From Chryseobacterium nakagawai (GTDB lineage Bacteria > Bacteroidota > Bacteroidia > Flavobacteriales > Weeksellaceae), in assembly GCF_900637665.1 (NCBI RefSeq), contig NZ_LR134386.1, positions 3,650,501 to 3,714,500 of the forward strand: 64,000 bases of DNA. The letters are read 5' to 3'. The notes under the pieces were generated by a model. That model searched no databases. It was not told the DNA's origin and saw only the letters and a program-made list of their open reading frames with translations. The position numbers and the translations under genes are program-made. Positions 27,418 to 50,565 of the stretch are shown one piece after another; position 1 is the stretch's first letter, and every line of letters starts with the position of its first letter.

Positions 27418-29403
27418 TTACAGTAAGTTTTCGTCTACAAGGTTCGGAAGGGTTACCTTTAGGTTAGGTTCAGCTTCCATCGCTCTTTTAATTGCGAAAA
27501 TAGCCCCTTCATTTCTTGCCCAGCTTCTTCTTGAGATTCCGTTATTCACGTCCCAGAAAAGCATAGACTTTAGTCTTCTGTCGGCATCATCACTGCCATC
27601 CAGCAGCATTCCGAAACCTCCATTGATTACTTCTCCCCAGCCTACTCCACCACCATTATGGATAGAAACCCAGGTTGCCCCACGGAAACTGTCACCAATA
27701 ACGTTGTGAATGGCCATATCTGCCGTAAATCTGGAACCATCGTAGATATTGGAAGTCTCTCTGTAAGGAGAATCTGTTCCGGAAACATCATGATGGTCTC
27801 TTCCTAATACAACCGGTCCTATCTCACCATTTTTAATCGCTTTATTGAAGGCTTCAGCAATCTTCATTCTTCCTTCTGCATCGGCATACAGGATTCTTGC
27901 CTGTGATCCTACTACCAATTTATTTTCCTGTGCTCCTTTGATCCACTGAATATTATCCTTCATCTGCTGCTGGATCTCTTCAGGAGAGTTTTTAATCATT
28001 TCTTCTAATACAGCACATGCAATTTCATCAGTTTTCTGTAGATCTTCCGGTTTTCCGCTTGCACATACCCAACGGAATGGTCCAAAACCGTAGTCAAAGC
28101 ACATTGGTCCCATAATATCCTGAACATAACTTGGATATTTAAATTCTCTTCCTAATGTTGGATTATCTGCCATTACATCTGCTCCGGCTCTGGAAGCTTC
28201 CAACAAGAAGGCATTCCCGTAATCGAAGAAGTAAGTTCCTTTTTCTGTATGTTTATTGATCGCTGCAGCGTGTCTTCTTAAAGTTTCCTGAACTTTTTCT
28301 TTAAATAATTCAGGGTCTTCAGCCATCATTGCATTGGATTCTTCAAAACTTTGTCCTACCGGATAATATCCACCCGCCCAAGGATTGTGAAGTGATGTCT
28401 GGTCTGAACCAATGTCAATTCTTAAATCTTCTTTGTCAAATTTTTCCCAAACGTCCACAATGTTTCCAAGGTACGCTAAAGAAACCGTTTCTTTATTTTG
28501 TTGCGCTTCTCTTACTCTTTTTACCAATGCATCAAGGTCTTCATAAATTTCATTCACCCATTTCTGATCATGACGGATTTTGGTGATTTTTGGATTTACT
28601 TCTGCACATACGGTAACACAACCGGCAATATTTCCTGCTTTTGGCTGAGCTCCACTCATTCCTCCTAATCCTGAAGTTACGAAAAGTCCTCCTTTTGGCT
28701 CTTTATTGATCTTTCTGAAAGCGTTTAAAGCGGTAATCGTTGTTCCGTGAACAATTCCCTGTGGGCCGATGTACATATAACTTCCTGCAGTCATTTGCCC
28801 GTACTGCGTTACGCCAAGAGCATTGAATTTCTCCCAATCATCCGGTTTTGAATAGTTCGGGATCATCATCCCGTTCGTTACGACTACTCTTGGTGCATCT
28901 TTATGAGACGGAAACAATCCCATCGGATGTCCTGAATACATGACCAAAGTCTGCTCATTGGTCATTTCAGAGAGATACTTCATCGTCAACAGATATTGTG
29001 CCCAGTTAGAGAAAACAGCACCATTTCCCCCGTAAGTAATCAATTCATGAGGGTGCTGAGCCACTGCATAATCCAGATTGTTCTGAATCATCAGCATAAT
29101 GGCTTTCGCCTGCTCAGATTTTCCCGGATAATCTTCAATGGATCTCGCTTTCATCTCGTAATCCGGACGGAAACGATACATATAAATTCTTCCGTAATCC
29201 TCCAACTCCTGCTTAAATTCAGGAATTAATTCTGCATGAAACTTGGGATCGAAATAACGTAAAGCATTCTTTAATGCCAGTTTTTTCTCTTCTTCCCCTA
29301 AAATTTCTTTACGCTTTGGAGCATGGTTGATATTGGTCTCGTATGGTTGTGGTTGTGGCAGTTGATTAGGAATCCCCTGCTGTATCTGTTCTTGGAATGT
29401 CAT
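27418..29403 (-). CDS. hutU: Urocanate hydratase
   Basis: A 661-residue enzyme from the ATG at 29403 (a longer frame with an upstream start adds an atypical ten-residue leader). It converts urocanate to 4-imidazolone-5-propanoate with a tightly bound NAD+, the second step of histidine breakdown. Seen: the N-terminal block QYLLTMKYLSEMTNEQTLVMYSGHPMG, the NAD-binding region GGLFVTSGLGGMSGAQPKA, the active-site zone around GPMCFDYGFGPFRWVC, with the catalytic Cys motif of the family, and GDSFRGATWVSIHNGGGVGWG near the end. It is longer than the E. coli-type enzyme (about 555), as in the Bacteroidota and animal branch. hutH, hutI and hutG are not in the window. Confidence 0.95.
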   Translation of the reverse strand: MTFQEQIQQGIPNQLPQPQPYETNINHAPKRKEILGEEEKKLALKNALRYFDPKFHAELIPEFKQELEDYGRIYMYRFRPDYEMKARSIEDYPGKSEQAKAIMLMIQNNLDYAVAQHPHELITYGGNGAVFSNWAQYLLTMKYLSEMTNEQTLVMYSGHPMGLFPSHKDAPRVVVTNGMMIPNYSKPDDWEKFNALGVTQYGQMTAGSYMYIGPQGIVHGTTITALNAFRKINKEPKGGLFVTSGLGGMSGAQPKAGNIAGCVTVCAEVNPKITKIRHDQKWVNEIYEDLDALVKRVREAQQNKETVSLAYLGNIVDVWEKFDKEDLRIDIGSDQTSLHNPWAGGYYPVGQSFEESNAMMAEDPELFKEKVQETLRRHAAAINKHTEKGTYFFDYGNAFLLEASRAGADVMADNPTLGREFKYPSYVQDIMGPMCFDYGFGPFRWVCASGKPEDLQKTDEIACAVLEEMIKNSPEEIQQQMKDNIQWIKGAQENKLVVGSQARILYADAEGRMKIAEAFNKAIKNGEIGPVVLGRDHHDVSGTDSPYRETSNIYDGSRFTADMAIHNVIGDSFRGATWVSIHNGGGVGWGEVINGGFGMLLDGSDDADRRLKSMLFWDVNNGISRRSWARNEGAIFAIKRAMEAEPNLKVTLPNLVDENLL

Positions 29404-29594
29404 ATTGCTATTTAAAGTTCTATGTTTAAACAATGTTTGAAGTTTTAAAGATATTCAAATTATGAAATATAGGCAACAAAAGAGGGGAAAAGCAAAGTGG
29501 GAAAGAACGAATAAGCAAAAAAATTAATTATCAACCCTGTGAAAAGATAATCAACAGTATATTTTTAATACTATATTTGAAAAGATGCACTCAC

Positions 29595-29656
29595 ATTCCC
29601 CTCCTCTGGAGGGGGTGGATTTCAAAATTCAAAGAATTTTGGAAGACGGGGTGGTT
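29595..29656 (+). repeat. Left inverted repeat flanking the DUF559 gene
   Basis: This roughly 60-base element contains the mini-hairpin CCCCTCC-TCT-GGAGGGG, an inner AAAATTC/GAATTTT hairpin, and ends GACGGGGTGGTT, twelve bases before the DUF559 start codon. It aligns, as an inverted copy, with 30078-30137. Confidence 0.9.
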
Positions 29657-29667
29657 AAAACACACAA

Positions 29668-30102
29668 ATGAAAGAAATACTAACCTCCATCAATGGAATT
29701 CCCATTCATAAAAATTTTGTAGAAAACCTTCCCTATAATCCCTATTTAAAAGTATTATTAAAAGAAAAACGTAAAGCCAGAATACTAGGTGAAGTTATCT
29801 TCTGGAAAAAAGTTAGGGCAAGAACTTTTCATCATATTGATTTCGACAGACAAAGAATTATTGGAAACTATATTGTCGATTTTTATGTGAAATCTTTAGG
29901 ATTAATTATAGAAATTGATGGTTCAAGCCATGAAGGGAAAGAAGTTTATGATGACATTAGGCAAAAATATCTGGAATCTTTAGGTCTATTGGTTTTTAGG
30001 ATTGCTGATTTTGACGTAAGGAATAATCTTGTGTTGACTATGAAAGATTTAGAGGATTTTATTATTACGCATTATGGAACCACCCCGTCTTCAAAAATTT
30101 GA
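29668..30102 (+). CDS. DUF559 (Vsr/PD-(D/E)XK-like) nuclease boxed by inverted repeats
   Basis: A 144-residue protein of the DUF559 family, a PD-(D/E)XK-fold group related to very short patch repair endonucleases. Seen: FWKKVRARTFHHIDFDRQRIIGNYIVDFYV with its Asp, the strand LIIEIDGSSHEG and GLLVFRIADFDVRNNLVLTM. The gene fits tightly between two inverted copies of a roughly 60-base repeat: the left copy ends 12 bases before the ATG, and the last codons (GTTPSSKI) and stop lie inside the right copy. This looks like a mobile or self-maintaining unit. The biological role of DUF559 proteins is not known; nuclease activity is inferred from the fold. Confidence 0.85.
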   Translation: MKEILTSINGIPIHKNFVENLPYNPYLKVLLKEKRKARILGEVIFWKKVRARTFHHIDFDRQRIIGNYIVDFYVKSLGLIIEIDGSSHEGKEVYDDIRQKYLESLGLLVFRIADFDVRNNLVLTMKDLEDFIITHYGTTPSSKI

Positions 30103-30137
30103 TAATTTTTGAATCCACCCCTCCAGAGGAGGGGAAT
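30078..30137 (-). repeat. Right inverted repeat flanking the DUF559 gene
   Basis: AACCACCCCGTCTTC begins the element and CCCCTCCAGAGGAGGGG ends it. Its reverse complement aligns with 29595-29656 over about 60 bases with few differences. It supplies the last eight codons and stop of the DUF559 gene. Confidence 0.9.
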
Positions 30138-30177
30138 TTCTTCTTACAAAATAAGATTATCATTCAGATGAAAAATA

Positions 30178-30207
30178 AAAAACCTCACTGAAATTTAGTA
30201 AGGTTTA
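30178..30207 (-). terminator. Terminator of the T9SS protein gene
   Basis: AAACCTCACT pairs with AGTAAGGTTT with one mismatch pair, flanked by A and T runs. The same arms recur at 32897-32924 and 34300-34330. Confidence 0.75.
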
Positions 30208-30245
30208 TATTTTATATATAGTATTTCTTAGCGTATCCTTCGTTT

Positions 30246-32810
30246 TTATTTTTTAATAAATTTCTCAACAGATTTCTCTTTACTTCCATTCAGATGAATA
30301 TAATAAACACCTTTAGGCAGATTAGAAACATCAATCGTGGAGGTTAACTCTTTTGAATTGATAACCACCCTTCCTAAGCTATCCATAATTTGATACTGAT
30401 TAAACCCTTCTGTTCTTACATTAATAATACCCGTTGTTGGATTAGGATAAATCAAATTTTTCTTTGCTGTTTTTGTCTCTTTAGTCCCTAATAAGCTTTG
30501 AGGAATAAGTCTCGCAATTCCTTTTGTATATTGACCGTCAAAATAATCAAATTCTCCTGCGACAACAAATCCATTCCCGTGTTTTTTGATCTCAGATACA
30601 ATTTCGCCATAGTATTTTGTATGTGAAATGGTAAATCCTGTTCCAATATCAAATGTAGTATCATAAGTTCCGTTAGCATTGTGTCTTACAAGGCTTCTTG
30701 AATCAAAACCATTAGGTACAGATGTCAGGAATTTTCCATTATTTTCAAATTCTAAAGGCTGATACATCAGTTCTGTTCCTACCATTGGATAAGTAGGAGG
30801 AACAAAAGAAACATCTACGGTACCATCATTATTATATCTGGAAATTTTATGGACAGATGAATTTCTTTCCAATGCTAAAATCTTACCATCAGAAGTTGGG
30901 AAAAAGTCACGATTGTTATTAAATGAAGGAGCCATAACGAAAGTAGGATCTATCTGCCCATTTGGCAAAAGTCTTCCCAATCCTCTTTGAATTGCACCTC
31001 CTGAATTATTTCCGGAAAGCAGAATTTTATTATCAGGTAAAAGTTTAAGCCATAATATTGATGAATAAGGTTTTTGGTAAACGATAGAATTATCTAAGTT
31101 ACCATCAGTATCCAACGCTACAATTCCTTGATTCGGCAAAAGTATAGTATTATGCTTGTACATATTGGGTACAATAATTTTGCCATCGTCCTTCACAATA
31201 AATTGTCTAGCCTGGCCATCTAATCCTATATCATTTCCTACAAGACTAAAAAATGAGGTATCCAAAGAGCCATTCTGATTTAATCTGATCACTGCTCCAC
31301 CAAATGCTCCAAAATAAGAAGTTTGTATAACATTTCCTGTTAACAATACTATTTTACCATCCGTTTGAAGGTGTATGTCAAAAGGATATATTCCTGATGA
31401 CAGATATAAATACGCATCTGCACTAAAACTCTCATCAACAGACCCATCCGGATTTAAACGAATGATTTTATCTCGCGTAATTCCATTGTATGAGGAGAAC
31501 TCTCCCGATACCAGCATTTTACCGTCAGGTTGTACTACTACTTTATTAGGTGCTCTATCAAAACCTTTACAAATATTACGGAAAGACATATTAACCTCTC
31601 CATCAGTAGCAGAAAACTTAACGATATTATTGGCTGAAATTTCATTGTATAGCTTAATTCTTCCACCCGCAATAATATCGCCATCATTATCAACCCTTAA
31701 ATGCTGTATAACTTCTCCGGAACTTTCATACCGTATAGATGATATCCTTCCCAAAAATGAGGAATCCATATTTCCATCATTATTGAGTCTTATGATTCCT
31801 CCTACCCAATTATCTCCATATTTCCTGAAATTACCCGCAACAATAACTTTTCCACCCGTCTGAGGCAGTAACGCAAAAACTCCGTTATGATCGGCGTTTT
31901 CATAAGCCATCGTATAGAATCTTTTCGGTAAAAAGCTCCCATCCATTGTTCCATCTGCATTCAATCTGGTAATATATTGTCGGCTTTCTGAAAGCTTAAA
32001 TTTTCCTCCTAAATATATTTTATCATCATCTGCCAGAGCAATGGTTTTAATATCTCCACTAAAAGTATTGTCATCATGAGTATAAAAAGAGGTATCATGG
32101 GATCCGTCACTATTATACCTCCAAACTCTGTTTTTATTGATGGCTACGATCTTACCATTCTGCTGAAGGCCAAAATCTATAACATCATTAGGAAATGTTG
32201 GCAGAAAGTTAAACGCCGTATCAAGAGATCCGTCACTATTCAGTTTTACTACATACTTTGTGCTAATACCATTGTATGATAAAAAATTACCGGAGACTAA
32301 AATCTTTCCTCCATTCAGAACCATTACTTTTCTTACAGACCTGTTTGTATCATACATTTCATATCCAAATCCGGTTCCTATATTAAATGTATTGTCTTTG
32401 GTGCCATCTCCATTAAGCCTGATCATATTTTTCTCTGTTACATTGTTGTATTTTGTAAAACTTCCTACAGCAACAATTTTACCGTCATTCTGCAATGAAA
32501 TACTATTAACAGTCCCATCAAAATTCCCTCCAATATAAGAAGTATCTAAGGTAAAGTCTGGGTTTATTCTTACAATTTTAGTAATGTCTCCTACGTTAAG
32601 AGTATATTCATAATTTTTATAAACCACTAAAATTTTTCCATCTGGTTGTGTTAAAGTTGTAATAACTTCTTTTCCATCAATAAAATGTTTATTGGTTTGA
32701 AATGCCGCATTAAAATTAGGGTCTTTAATGTATTTATCTTGTGAATAAAGGTTTGCAACAATCATATTACAAAATACAATCAGCAGTAATCTCATGTAAA
32801 TGTTTATCAT
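30246..32810 (-). CDS. Delta-60 repeat protein with type IX sorting tail
   Basis: An 854-residue secreted protein. It opens with a signal peptide (RLLLIVFCNMIVANLYSQ; ATG at 32810, or 32795 five codons later). The body is a long array of delta-60-type beta-propeller repeats of about 50-60 residues, each with a core like DGKIVAVGSFTKYN, then IRLNGDGTKDNTF. The last 80 residues are a type IX secretion sorting domain: NLIYPNPTTGIINV, SLGRVVINSKEL, IDVSNLPKGVYYIHL. It is thus probably exported through the outer membrane by the T9SS and anchored or released. A role in adhesion or matrix is plausible but unproven. Confidence 0.93.
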   Translation of the reverse strand: MINIYMRLLLIVFCNMIVANLYSQDKYIKDPNFNAAFQTNKHFIDGKEVITTLTQPDGKILVVYKNYEYTLNVGDITKIVRINPDFTLDTSYIGGNFDGTVNSISLQNDGKIVAVGSFTKYNNVTEKNMIRLNGDGTKDNTFNIGTGFGYEMYDTNRSVRKVMVLNGGKILVSGNFLSYNGISTKYVVKLNSDGSLDTAFNFLPTFPNDVIDFGLQQNGKIVAINKNRVWRYNSDGSHDTSFYTHDDNTFSGDIKTIALADDDKIYLGGKFKLSESRQYITRLNADGTMDGSFLPKRFYTMAYENADHNGVFALLPQTGGKVIVAGNFRKYGDNWVGGIIRLNNDGNMDSSFLGRISSIRYESSGEVIQHLRVDNDGDIIAGGRIKLYNEISANNIVKFSATDGEVNMSFRNICKGFDRAPNKVVVQPDGKMLVSGEFSSYNGITRDKIIRLNPDGSVDESFSADAYLYLSSGIYPFDIHLQTDGKIVLLTGNVIQTSYFGAFGGAVIRLNQNGSLDTSFFSLVGNDIGLDGQARQFIVKDDGKIIVPNMYKHNTILLPNQGIVALDTDGNLDNSIVYQKPYSSILWLKLLPDNKILLSGNNSGGAIQRGLGRLLPNGQIDPTFVMAPSFNNNRDFFPTSDGKILALERNSSVHKISRYNNDGTVDVSFVPPTYPMVGTELMYQPLEFENNGKFLTSVPNGFDSRSLVRHNANGTYDTTFDIGTGFTISHTKYYGEIVSEIKKHGNGFVVAGEFDYFDGQYTKGIARLIPQSLLGTKETKTAKKNLIYPNPTTGIINVRTEGFNQYQIMDSLGRVVINSKELTSTIDVSNLPKGVYYIHLNGSKEKSVEKFIKK

Positions 32811-32896
32811 AGTGATACGTCTAAATTAGTTTTTGCTAAAATAATCATAATAAATAAAAACAACTTTCCCTTATAGACAAACTTTATAGACAGCAA

Positions 32897-50164: not shown

Positions 50165-50542
50165 ATGCAGAAGCCTCCTCTCTATAAAAGTTTTCTGAAT
50201 GCTTTCCGGGGTGTTTTTATCATGATTAAAACAGAAAGAAATTTTCAGATTGAGCTTCTTGCCTTCTTTGTTAATCTCTTCCTTATTTTTTATTTAAAGC
50301 TTACTTACATTGACGCAGCTTTAATTATTATGGCATCTGTAGCTGTTTTAAGCGCTGAAATTTTCAACACAGCCATCGAAAAGATATGTGATATCATTCA
50401 ACCTGATTTTGACAAAAGAATCGGATTTATCAAGGACATAGCAGCCGGTGCAGTTGTACTCATAGCTATCGCTTCTGTGATTATTGGGGTTCTGGTATAT
50501 TGGAAGTATTTTTTTAACTACCCCGTCAAATCTTTGATTTAA
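50165..50542 (+). CDS. dgkA: Diacylglycerol kinase, prokaryotic type
   Basis: A 125-residue integral membrane kinase of the DgkA/UndK type, with three transmembrane helices. Seen: SFLNAFRGVFIMIKTERNFQIELLAFFVNLF with the conserved Arg and Glu, then the core VAVLSAEIFNTAIEKICDIIQPDFD, whose ExxNTAIE motif is the family signature, and KDIAAGAVVLIAIASVIIGV. It phosphorylates diacylglycerol or undecaprenol for lipid recycling. The last residues (NYPVKSLI) and stop codon lie in a copy of the palindromic repeat that also forms the end of the DUF559 gene, so the native C terminus may have been replaced. Confidence 0.93.
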   Translation: MQKPPLYKSFLNAFRGVFIMIKTERNFQIELLAFFVNLFLIFYLKLTYIDAALIIMASVAVLSAEIFNTAIEKICDIIQPDFDKRIGFIKDIAAGAVVLIAIASVIIGVLVYWKYFFNYPVKSLI

Positions 50543-50565
50543 CATCCTTCCGAAGGAGGGGTGTG
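50516..50565. repeat. Solo copy of the DUF559-associated palindromic repeat
   Basis: AACTACCCCGTCAAATC (50516-50532), an AAATC/GATTT hairpin and CCTTCCGAAGGAGGGG (50545-50560) follow the same order as the right repeat at 30078-30137 (AACCACCCCGTC, hairpin, CCCCTCCAGAGGAGGGG). The copy stands alone, with no nuclease gene, and overlaps the end of dgkA. Confidence 0.75.

Follow-up and report, generated by a model that had tools for sequence, protein, structure and literature searches.

A DUF559 nuclease gene within inverted palindromic repeats in Chryseobacterium and the association of this gene family with such repeats in other bacteria

A nuclease gene between inverted repeats

The window analyzed here is a stretch of 64,000 nucleotides from Chryseobacterium nakagawai (contig NZ_LR134386.1, positions 3,650,501 to 3,714,500). 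It contains a gene for a 144-amino-acid protein with a predicted Vsr-like PD-(D/E)XK fold (29668..30102, plus strand), which is enclosed by a left repeat of 62 bp (29595..29656, plus strand) and by an inverted copy of that repeat on the right (30078..30137, minus strand). Each repeat consists of two stems and a foot. On the left, stem A lies at 29598-29614, stem B at 29620-29644, and the foot, GACGGGGTGGT, at 29645-29655; on the right, the foot lies at 30079-30089, stem B at 30090-30113, and stem A at 30118-30134, and the foot is oriented toward the gene in both repeats. Stem A follows the pattern CCCCTCC-NNN-GGAGGGG, with the version CCCCTCC-TCT-GGAGGGG in the window, and stem B is an A/T-rich hairpin of 10 to 11 bp with T-A pairs at its start and a loop of 3 to 4 nt.

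The two arms are complementary over 20 nt at 100% and a further 36 nt at 83% (87% by BLAST), and the inverted match of the two flanks scored 39, compared to no more than 18.5 in 1,000 dinucleotide shuffles of both flanks. The open reading frame matched PF04480 (DUF559) at 81.1 bits, against a curated cutoff of 20.6, and the only other Pfam match at an E value of 0.001 was a weak one to MTES_1575. Together, these scores bear out the initial annotation, in which a DUF559 gene was placed between inverted repeats of about 60 bp. The ATG is 11 nt past the left arm. At the other end of the gene, the final 7 residues and the stop codon are encoded within the right arm, in agreement with the earlier reading that the repeat supplies the last eight codons; the two small hairpins described for each repeat, stem A and the A/T stem B, both fold as claimed. 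A solo copy without the gene had also been reported, and a score-based match does exist at 50512..50561 on the minus strand, but it is degenerate (25.5, compared to 19.0 at the next-best place in the window) and is absent from the 23 genome matches of the repeat found by BLAST. Across the C. nakagawai genome (5.60 Mb, one contig), there is a single gene of the window's DUF559 family, and five extra repeat copies were found at an E value below 1e-3, beyond the two at the gene.

Among the best 50 matches listed, the predicted fold was closest to NGO0050, the homing endonuclease I-Bth0305I, and Vsr, and a profile match to I-Bth0305I had an E value of 1.3e-5. In an alignment of 14 sequences, E42, E82, and D84 were invariant and D71 and H88 were present in at least 90%. 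Orthologues had a median dN/dS of 0.085 over 492 pairs, with the last codons excluded, and by this measure the protein is under strong purifying selection. NCBIfam returned PRK09767 (DUF559) alone for the window protein, at 52.5 bits and below its cutoff of 218, and no Rfam family matched within 29400-30400 up to an E value of 1. Two other identities were considered and set aside: a defense system, for which the PADLOC match was marginal (E value of 0.0033), and a phage origin, for which there were 2 matches at an E value of 1e-5 or lower among 50,697 phage records. Directly adjoining the repeat unit, a close genome (G154) lacks about 2.7 kb of the window (30213-32894). This segment carries an 854-amino-acid gene (30246-32810) whose product is apparently secreted, with a C terminus that we take to be of the T9SS type.

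Gene and repeats across Chryseobacterium

Related loci were collected from two sources, 38 named and 29 from the second, which may have genomes in common; all of the named loci are from Chryseobacterium except one from Epilithonimonas. Both repeats were present at 45 of these 67 loci and neither at 5; the left repeat was found at 57 loci, in 40 distinct versions, and the right repeat at 50, in 36 distinct versions. The repeat-gene association is stable within the genus. The foot, GACGGGGTGGT, was kept in 75 of the 76 distinct repeats. Versions of stem B change wholesale yet pair with their own arm, so pairing rather than sequence is conserved: among 9 dissimilar versions, own arms paired at 6.8 of 10 positions versus 4.4 for mixed arms (P = 3e-5, with cross scores that are not independent). 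The loops of the two arms were equal in 4 of 26 cases (2.6 expected), which is not beyond chance, and reverse complementary in 0 of 26 (0.3 expected), and concerted evolution of loops between the arms was rejected for want of a signal in these counts.

The perfect stem A pattern occurred 995 times in 118 Chryseobacterium genomes, and a reversed control pattern occurred once. The gene family was present at an E value below 1e-30 in 68 of these genomes, 9 had weaker matches alone, and 41 had none. Stem-free genomes made up 1 of the 68, 3 of the 9, and 13 of the 41 (Fisher P = 7.7e-6 for 68 versus 41, phylogeny ignored), and the median number of stems beyond two per gene was 8 with the gene versus 3 without it (P = 0.001, phylogeny again ignored). 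Gene presence and repeat number therefore go together, with exceptions. Gene-less genomes had up to 16 stems, and in 17 gene-less genomes chosen for their stems there was no DUF559 match better than an E value of 4e-5; repeats persist without the gene, which counts against a strict gene-repeat link. When one dispersed stem was sampled from each of 30 genomes, 25 were single, 1 was part of a dimer, and 4 had no foot, and 29 of the 30 were outside open reading frames of at least 80 amino acids.

Gene loss and repeat turnover near hutU

The site of the gene was compared in 30 chosen genomes, 14 with the gene and 16 without, the ratios of which are not frequencies. As in the window, every one of the 14 gene copies lies 5' of hutU and no more than 1.4 kb from it; 2 have the orientation of the window and 12 are inverted. 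One genome (G192) has an array of dimer, dimer, and dimer with gene at this site, with a period of about 251 bp and a foot-to-foot distance of 54 bp in the empty dimers and 444 bp with the gene. Three genomes have a gene-less dimer (G159, G239, and G202), one has a degenerate dimer (G165), and two (G178 and G183) have a lone bare palindrome joined to flanks found in gene-bearing relatives; in G178 this palindrome is ATTCCCCTCC-AGA-GGAGGGGAAT. No palindrome is present in G161, and degenerate repeat remains were recognized by reading in G199, G189, and G187. The near-precise empty sites in G178 and G183 are best read as deletions between two direct stem A copies. No clear target-site duplication was found at G178 and G161, both of which read as deletions. 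On the basis of these alignments, the DUF559 gene in Chryseobacterium appears to be old at one site and often lost later, not newly gained.

One solo copy (G000:C1:4740349) was traced in 15 genomes, again a chosen set whose ratios are not frequencies, and was recognizable in 10 of them (partly in G197). In four genomes (G166, G259, G189, and G176), the repeat aligns and the immediate flanks do not; the copy is missing in G178 and G187, and the segment in G161 could not be anchored. In G238 (L253) and G183 (L254), the same place holds another palindromic repeat, GTCATTCTGACGAAGGAAGAATCT ... AGAATGAC. Because this other palindrome replaces the DUF559-type repeat there, different repeat families use the same spot. 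Inverted loops were found at orthologous hairpins, AAA/TTT between G000 and G154, which are 99% identical there, and AGT/ACT between G199 and G152. These two inversions suggest that hairpins may turn or undergo conversion.

DUF559 genes and hairpins in other bacteria

PF04480 was present in 78 of 148 Bacteroidota genomes sampled. More places were listed than were fetched, and the 57 standalone loci used here are a subset made up of 17 of 30 returned places and 40 further ones, taken mostly by score order. The first 100 bp next to these genes held 0.57 GC hairpins per locus on the 5' side and 0.55 on the 3' side, and farther out, past 400 bp 5' and 200 bp 3', no 100-bp bin exceeded 0.08. After removal of 3 loci with short flanks, 39 of 54 had a hairpin within 150 bp on the 5' side and 30 of 54 on the 3' side, while control ends of neighboring genes at the same loci had 2 of 32 and 3 of 30, respectively. 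At 8 of the 57 loci, no strict hairpin was found within 200 bp on either side.

Flanks of the same gene resemble each other. Where a genome has multiple DUF559 genes, the two flanks of one gene matched each other better than in any cross pairing within that genome in 21 of 36 cases (self versus cross scores, P = 1.4e-6). The inverted-repeat score exceeded the 99th percentile of cross-locus pairs at only 13 of 54 loci, in part because similar repeats occur at unrelated loci. At 33 of 54 loci, direct repeats with a score of at least 16 lie on the two sides of the gene (cross-locus control, 99th percentile of 16.6 and maximum of 33); the gene therefore often lies within a repeat array. For example, counting overlapping matches on both strands, one such dimer had 94 matches in a genome with 4 DUF559 matches (G011), 54 in a genome with 2 (G016), 11 in a congener without DUF559 (G006), and none in G001, G072, and G122, the last two of which have DUF559 genes with other repeats. 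Among the matches listed, the 4 that span nearly the whole dimer all adjoin the gene. A CGTC tag was considered as a general mark of DUF559 repeats and rejected as weak, at 8 of 57 loci versus 2 of 57 controls.

Loci beyond Bacteroidota came from a plasmid collection in which some records are really chromosomes, and were selected manually, to avoid near-duplicates, from lists of 26 and 35 records; one of 22 (L280) was dropped because its domain is within a long protein. Of the remaining 21, 16 carried a hairpin no more than 150 bp away; 12 carried one 5' of the gene and 12 carried one 3' of it, where 0.14 would be expected per side. One of the hairpins counted (L147) spans the start codon. By phylum, these were 11 of 14 loci in Pseudomonadota, 4 of 4 in Deinococcota, and 1 of 3 in Cyanobacteriota, and the 5 without a hairpin in this range include those of E. 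coli and Neisseria and two of the three cyanobacterial loci. Several of these genes are located between members of a single operon. In Sphingomonas, DUF559 genes are found between sufB and sufC and between the pnt genes; in Deinococcus psychrotolerans the gene is between paaD and paaZ; and in three Deinococcus species it lies on the other strand at differing points among the hpa genes.

The standalone DUF559 genes on cyanobacterial plasmids (L149, L281, and L286) adjoin DUF1156, BREX PglX-like, PIN, or VapC genes, a defense-island setting with fewer hairpins (1 of 3). In the one E. coli region without ycjD that was opened (L241, strain SF-468), there was no clean empty ycjD site. That region has RND efflux genes and a TetR regulator upstream of fabI, the position of ycjD in other strains.

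DUF559 in frame within other proteins

At all 13 loci with a long reading frame, a single open frame covers both DUF559 and an unrelated protein. The hosts are LeuRS (L076 and L078, and L100 at another site), MetH (L089 and L094, both at one site), HsdR (L079 and L081, at two sites), HsdM (L086), type ISP, N6/N4 methylase, and MmeI-type proteins (L074, L075, and L077), an N-formylglutamate amidohydrolase (L099), and an M23 peptidase (L103); RecG (L329) is a fourteenth case. Host Pfam domains were found on both sides of DUF559 at 8 of the 13. A GC hairpin was present within 250 bp of the domain at 12 of 13 and on both sides at 8, the exception being one of the LeuRS insertions (L076), which had none. 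The repeats at these loci are translated, for example, as PSPLPLGEDLGEGK. Residues 300 and 461 of L076 match residues 236 and 240 of a solved LeuRS (1h3n), and residues 475 and 628 of L094 match residues 752 and 772 in the structure of a methionine synthase (9ssp).

Filled and empty versions of the same gene could be compared for LeuRS in 15 chosen genomes, the ratios of which are not frequencies. Three are filled (G053, G103, and G029). In the other 12, which include C. nakagawai and a genome of the same genus as the filled G029 (G088), LeuRS is uninterrupted, with the two halves 9 to 33 bp apart. The spacing from the motif WIGKSxGA to FTTRPDTIFG was 164 to 177 amino acids in the 3 filled proteins and 15 to 19 in 4 empty ones that were read, and no repeat was found at the site in the uninterrupted orthologues read. 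Since both filled and empty LeuRS genes exist, past insertion of the DUF559 unit is well supported, and the long-frame loci as a group are the strongest sign that the unit has moved.

What the unit may be

The association between DUF559 and palindromic repeats is real and broad, and it is well supported. The initial annotation had linked a nuclease family to palindromic repeats in Bacteroidota and had named three observations as contrary evidence: repeats absent elsewhere in the genome, no empty sites in close relatives, and other DUF559 genes without such flanks. The link came through all three. There are five further copies in the C. nakagawai genome and the 995 stems in the genus, gene-free sites occur both at hutU (G178, G183, and the gene-less dimers) and in LeuRS, and most DUF559 loci examined carry such hairpins (39 of 54 and 30 of 54 on the two sides in Bacteroidota, 16 of 21 elsewhere, and 12 of 13 in long frames). 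The link extends beyond Bacteroidota, given those 16 of 21 loci in other phyla.

Our preferred reading, which we hold to be fairly probable, is a REPtron-like mobile unit of two parts, a small nuclease resembling homing endonucleases within an inverted dimer of its cognate repeat. Such a unit would be comparable to the RAYT/REPIN pair with an unrelated enzyme. The likeliest working, we infer, would be homing-like, by cleavage and repair from a repeat copy, with the nuclease cutting the repeats and driving their spread. The DUF559 nuclease may recognize the hairpin and foot, probably in single-stranded or extruded form, and may nick or cut at the hairpin and foot or at the target. The break would then be repaired by copying from, or annealing with, a copy of the repeat, which would carry the repeat or the whole unit to new places and create tandem dimers beside the gene, and a deletion between two direct stem A copies would leave one palindrome. 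The weak points of this reading are the losses and vertical inheritance of the gene at hutU, the repeats in gene-less genomes, the loci at which no strict hairpin was found, and the predominance of single copies among dispersed stems.

Three other accounts were weighed against this one. DUF559 could be a host repair enzyme, active in Vsr-like mismatch repair or in the processing of hairpins and cruciforms, near which repeats gather for other reasons, for example, as terminators or substrate. The Vsr-like predicted fold and the strong purifying selection are in keeping with such a role, as is the Caulobacter DUF559-domain protein that works with a cytosine methyltransferase and is SOS induced (PMC12907096). 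However, neighboring genes are mostly without such repeats, the repeats differ from gene to gene within a genome yet match across each gene, and a repair gene with terminators cannot explain an in-frame domain in LeuRS, MetH, HsdR, and RecG, and we consider a repair role unlikely. The LeuRS cases also weigh on the idea of a passive cassette, in which ordinary recombination between common repeats gains, inverts, and loses a gene whose product is inert on them. Such recombination would produce both the orientation opposite to that of the window, seen at hutU in 12 of the 14 genomes with the gene, and the deletions between direct stem A copies, but it offers no account of why one protein family occupies the repeats or of insertion together with repeats into LeuRS, whose uninterrupted orthologues, where read, have no repeat. 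This makes the passive cassette a distinctly improbable explanation.

The repeats could instead be REPs moved in trans by a RAYT or another transposase, with the DUF559 gene as a trapped passenger. REPs and RAYTs are known in Bacteroidetes, and the C. nakagawai genome has 6 Y1-transposase matches, but none of these 6 loci carries the foot or stem A within about 1.5 kb, and a RAYT in trans as the sole mover was rejected on that count. At three of the 6 loci (L069 and the neighboring pair L070 and L071), the RAYT-type genes have clear inverted repeats of their own, which differ in sequence from the DUF559 repeats and are of a GGGCTAAAGCCC type at L070 and L071. Within repeats such as those of the window, it is one and the same family, DUF559, that is found in phylum after phylum. 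Movement in trans is very improbable.

Returning to the two-part unit, a wider proposal is that palindromic repeats across the bacteria, at least some of the CGTC REPs among them, form a superfamily whose enzyme is the DUF559 nuclease. They would be a second, independent class of REP-like mobile elements that would work by homing-type breaks instead of HUH chemistry and could enter essential genes in frame, to be translated unspliced. This proposal is tentative, and we place it slightly on the doubtful side of even. Palindromic repeats are scattered through bacterial genomes, many of their families have no known enzyme, and DUF559 nucleases, which are conserved, widely distributed, and little characterized, lie inside such repeats. 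If the proposal is true, REP-like elements evolved on two occasions around unrelated enzymes, many proteins annotated as "endonuclease domain-containing" gain a function, and an element that is in frame and unspliced in LeuRS, MetH, and RecG represents a new mode of persistence.

Comparison with known systems

The window protein resembles Vsr and the EDxHD homing endonuclease I-Bth0305I in predicted fold and profile match, and differs from them in having no extra DNA-binding domain. One paper classes a DUF559 gene among EDxHD homing endonucleases (PMC9403480), and the Caulobacter protein is treated as a Vsr-like repair enzyme (PMC12907096). Unlike homing endonucleases, DUF559 showed no intron or intein domain in Pfam scans, even at the in-frame sites. 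YcjD of E. coli and NGO0050 of Neisseria (3HRL) are related to the window protein, but the repeat sequences at their loci are unlike those of the window, and both loci fail the strict hairpin test; by reading, the end of ycjD is inside a palindromic repeat, and its 5' palindrome is of another type. A search of an open-license library for a link of DUF559 or YcjD to palindromic repeats found no paper.

REPs with a CGTC tag, which include the Rickettsia palindromic elements RPE-4 and RPE-6, are reported in Bacteroidetes, some of them inside genes, apparently without a dedicated transposase (Di Nocera 2013, PMC3733652). The Chryseobacterium repeat resembles them in that CGTC stands at the foot of its stem B and that its tail is of the CCA type. 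The order in the window is ACCACCC-CGTC-stem B-TCCA, and most of the related repeats printed, though not all, have a TCCA or GCCA tail. CGTC REPs are mostly head-to-head dimers, whereas the sampled Chryseobacterium stems included 1 dimer and 25 single copies (n = 30). The stem of CGTC REPs has 8 to 9 bp, starts from A/T pairs, and carries a loop of 4 to 5 nt; stem B of the window has 10 to 11 bp, starts with T-A pairs, and carries a loop of 3 to 4 nt. The Chryseobacterium unit also has a second stem (A), and no nuclease is described for the CGTC class in the sections available. Because the tag is not general (8 of 57 loci versus 2 of 57), the connection between DUF559 and CGTC REPs is a lead, not a result.

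The closest parallel is with RAYT genes and REPINs, the plan of which comprises a single-copy gene, flanking REPs, tandem REPIN clusters at the gene, and nonautonomous copies elsewhere (PMC3116915). The enzymes differ, with an HUH/Y1 transposase in RAYTs and a DUF559 PD-(D/E)XK-type nuclease in the window, and a Pfam scan at an E value of 0.001 found no Y1_Tnp domain, with its HUH motif and catalytic Tyr, in the window protein. REPs of RAYTs have a GTAG tag at the foot, where the Chryseobacterium repeat has GACGGGGTGGT, and dispersed Chryseobacterium copies are mostly single (25 of 30), unlike REPIN dimers. The DUF559 unit is not a member of the RAYT/TnpA_REP family, because it has no HUH domain and its tag is not GTAG. 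It nevertheless has the feature by which RAYT genes are recognized, inverted palindromic flanks that recur elsewhere in the genome, and the two systems are alike in a single-copy gene under selection beside inverted palindromic repeats, in gene-less dimers and singlets elsewhere, and in tandem clusters of dimers, together with their flanks, beside the gene.
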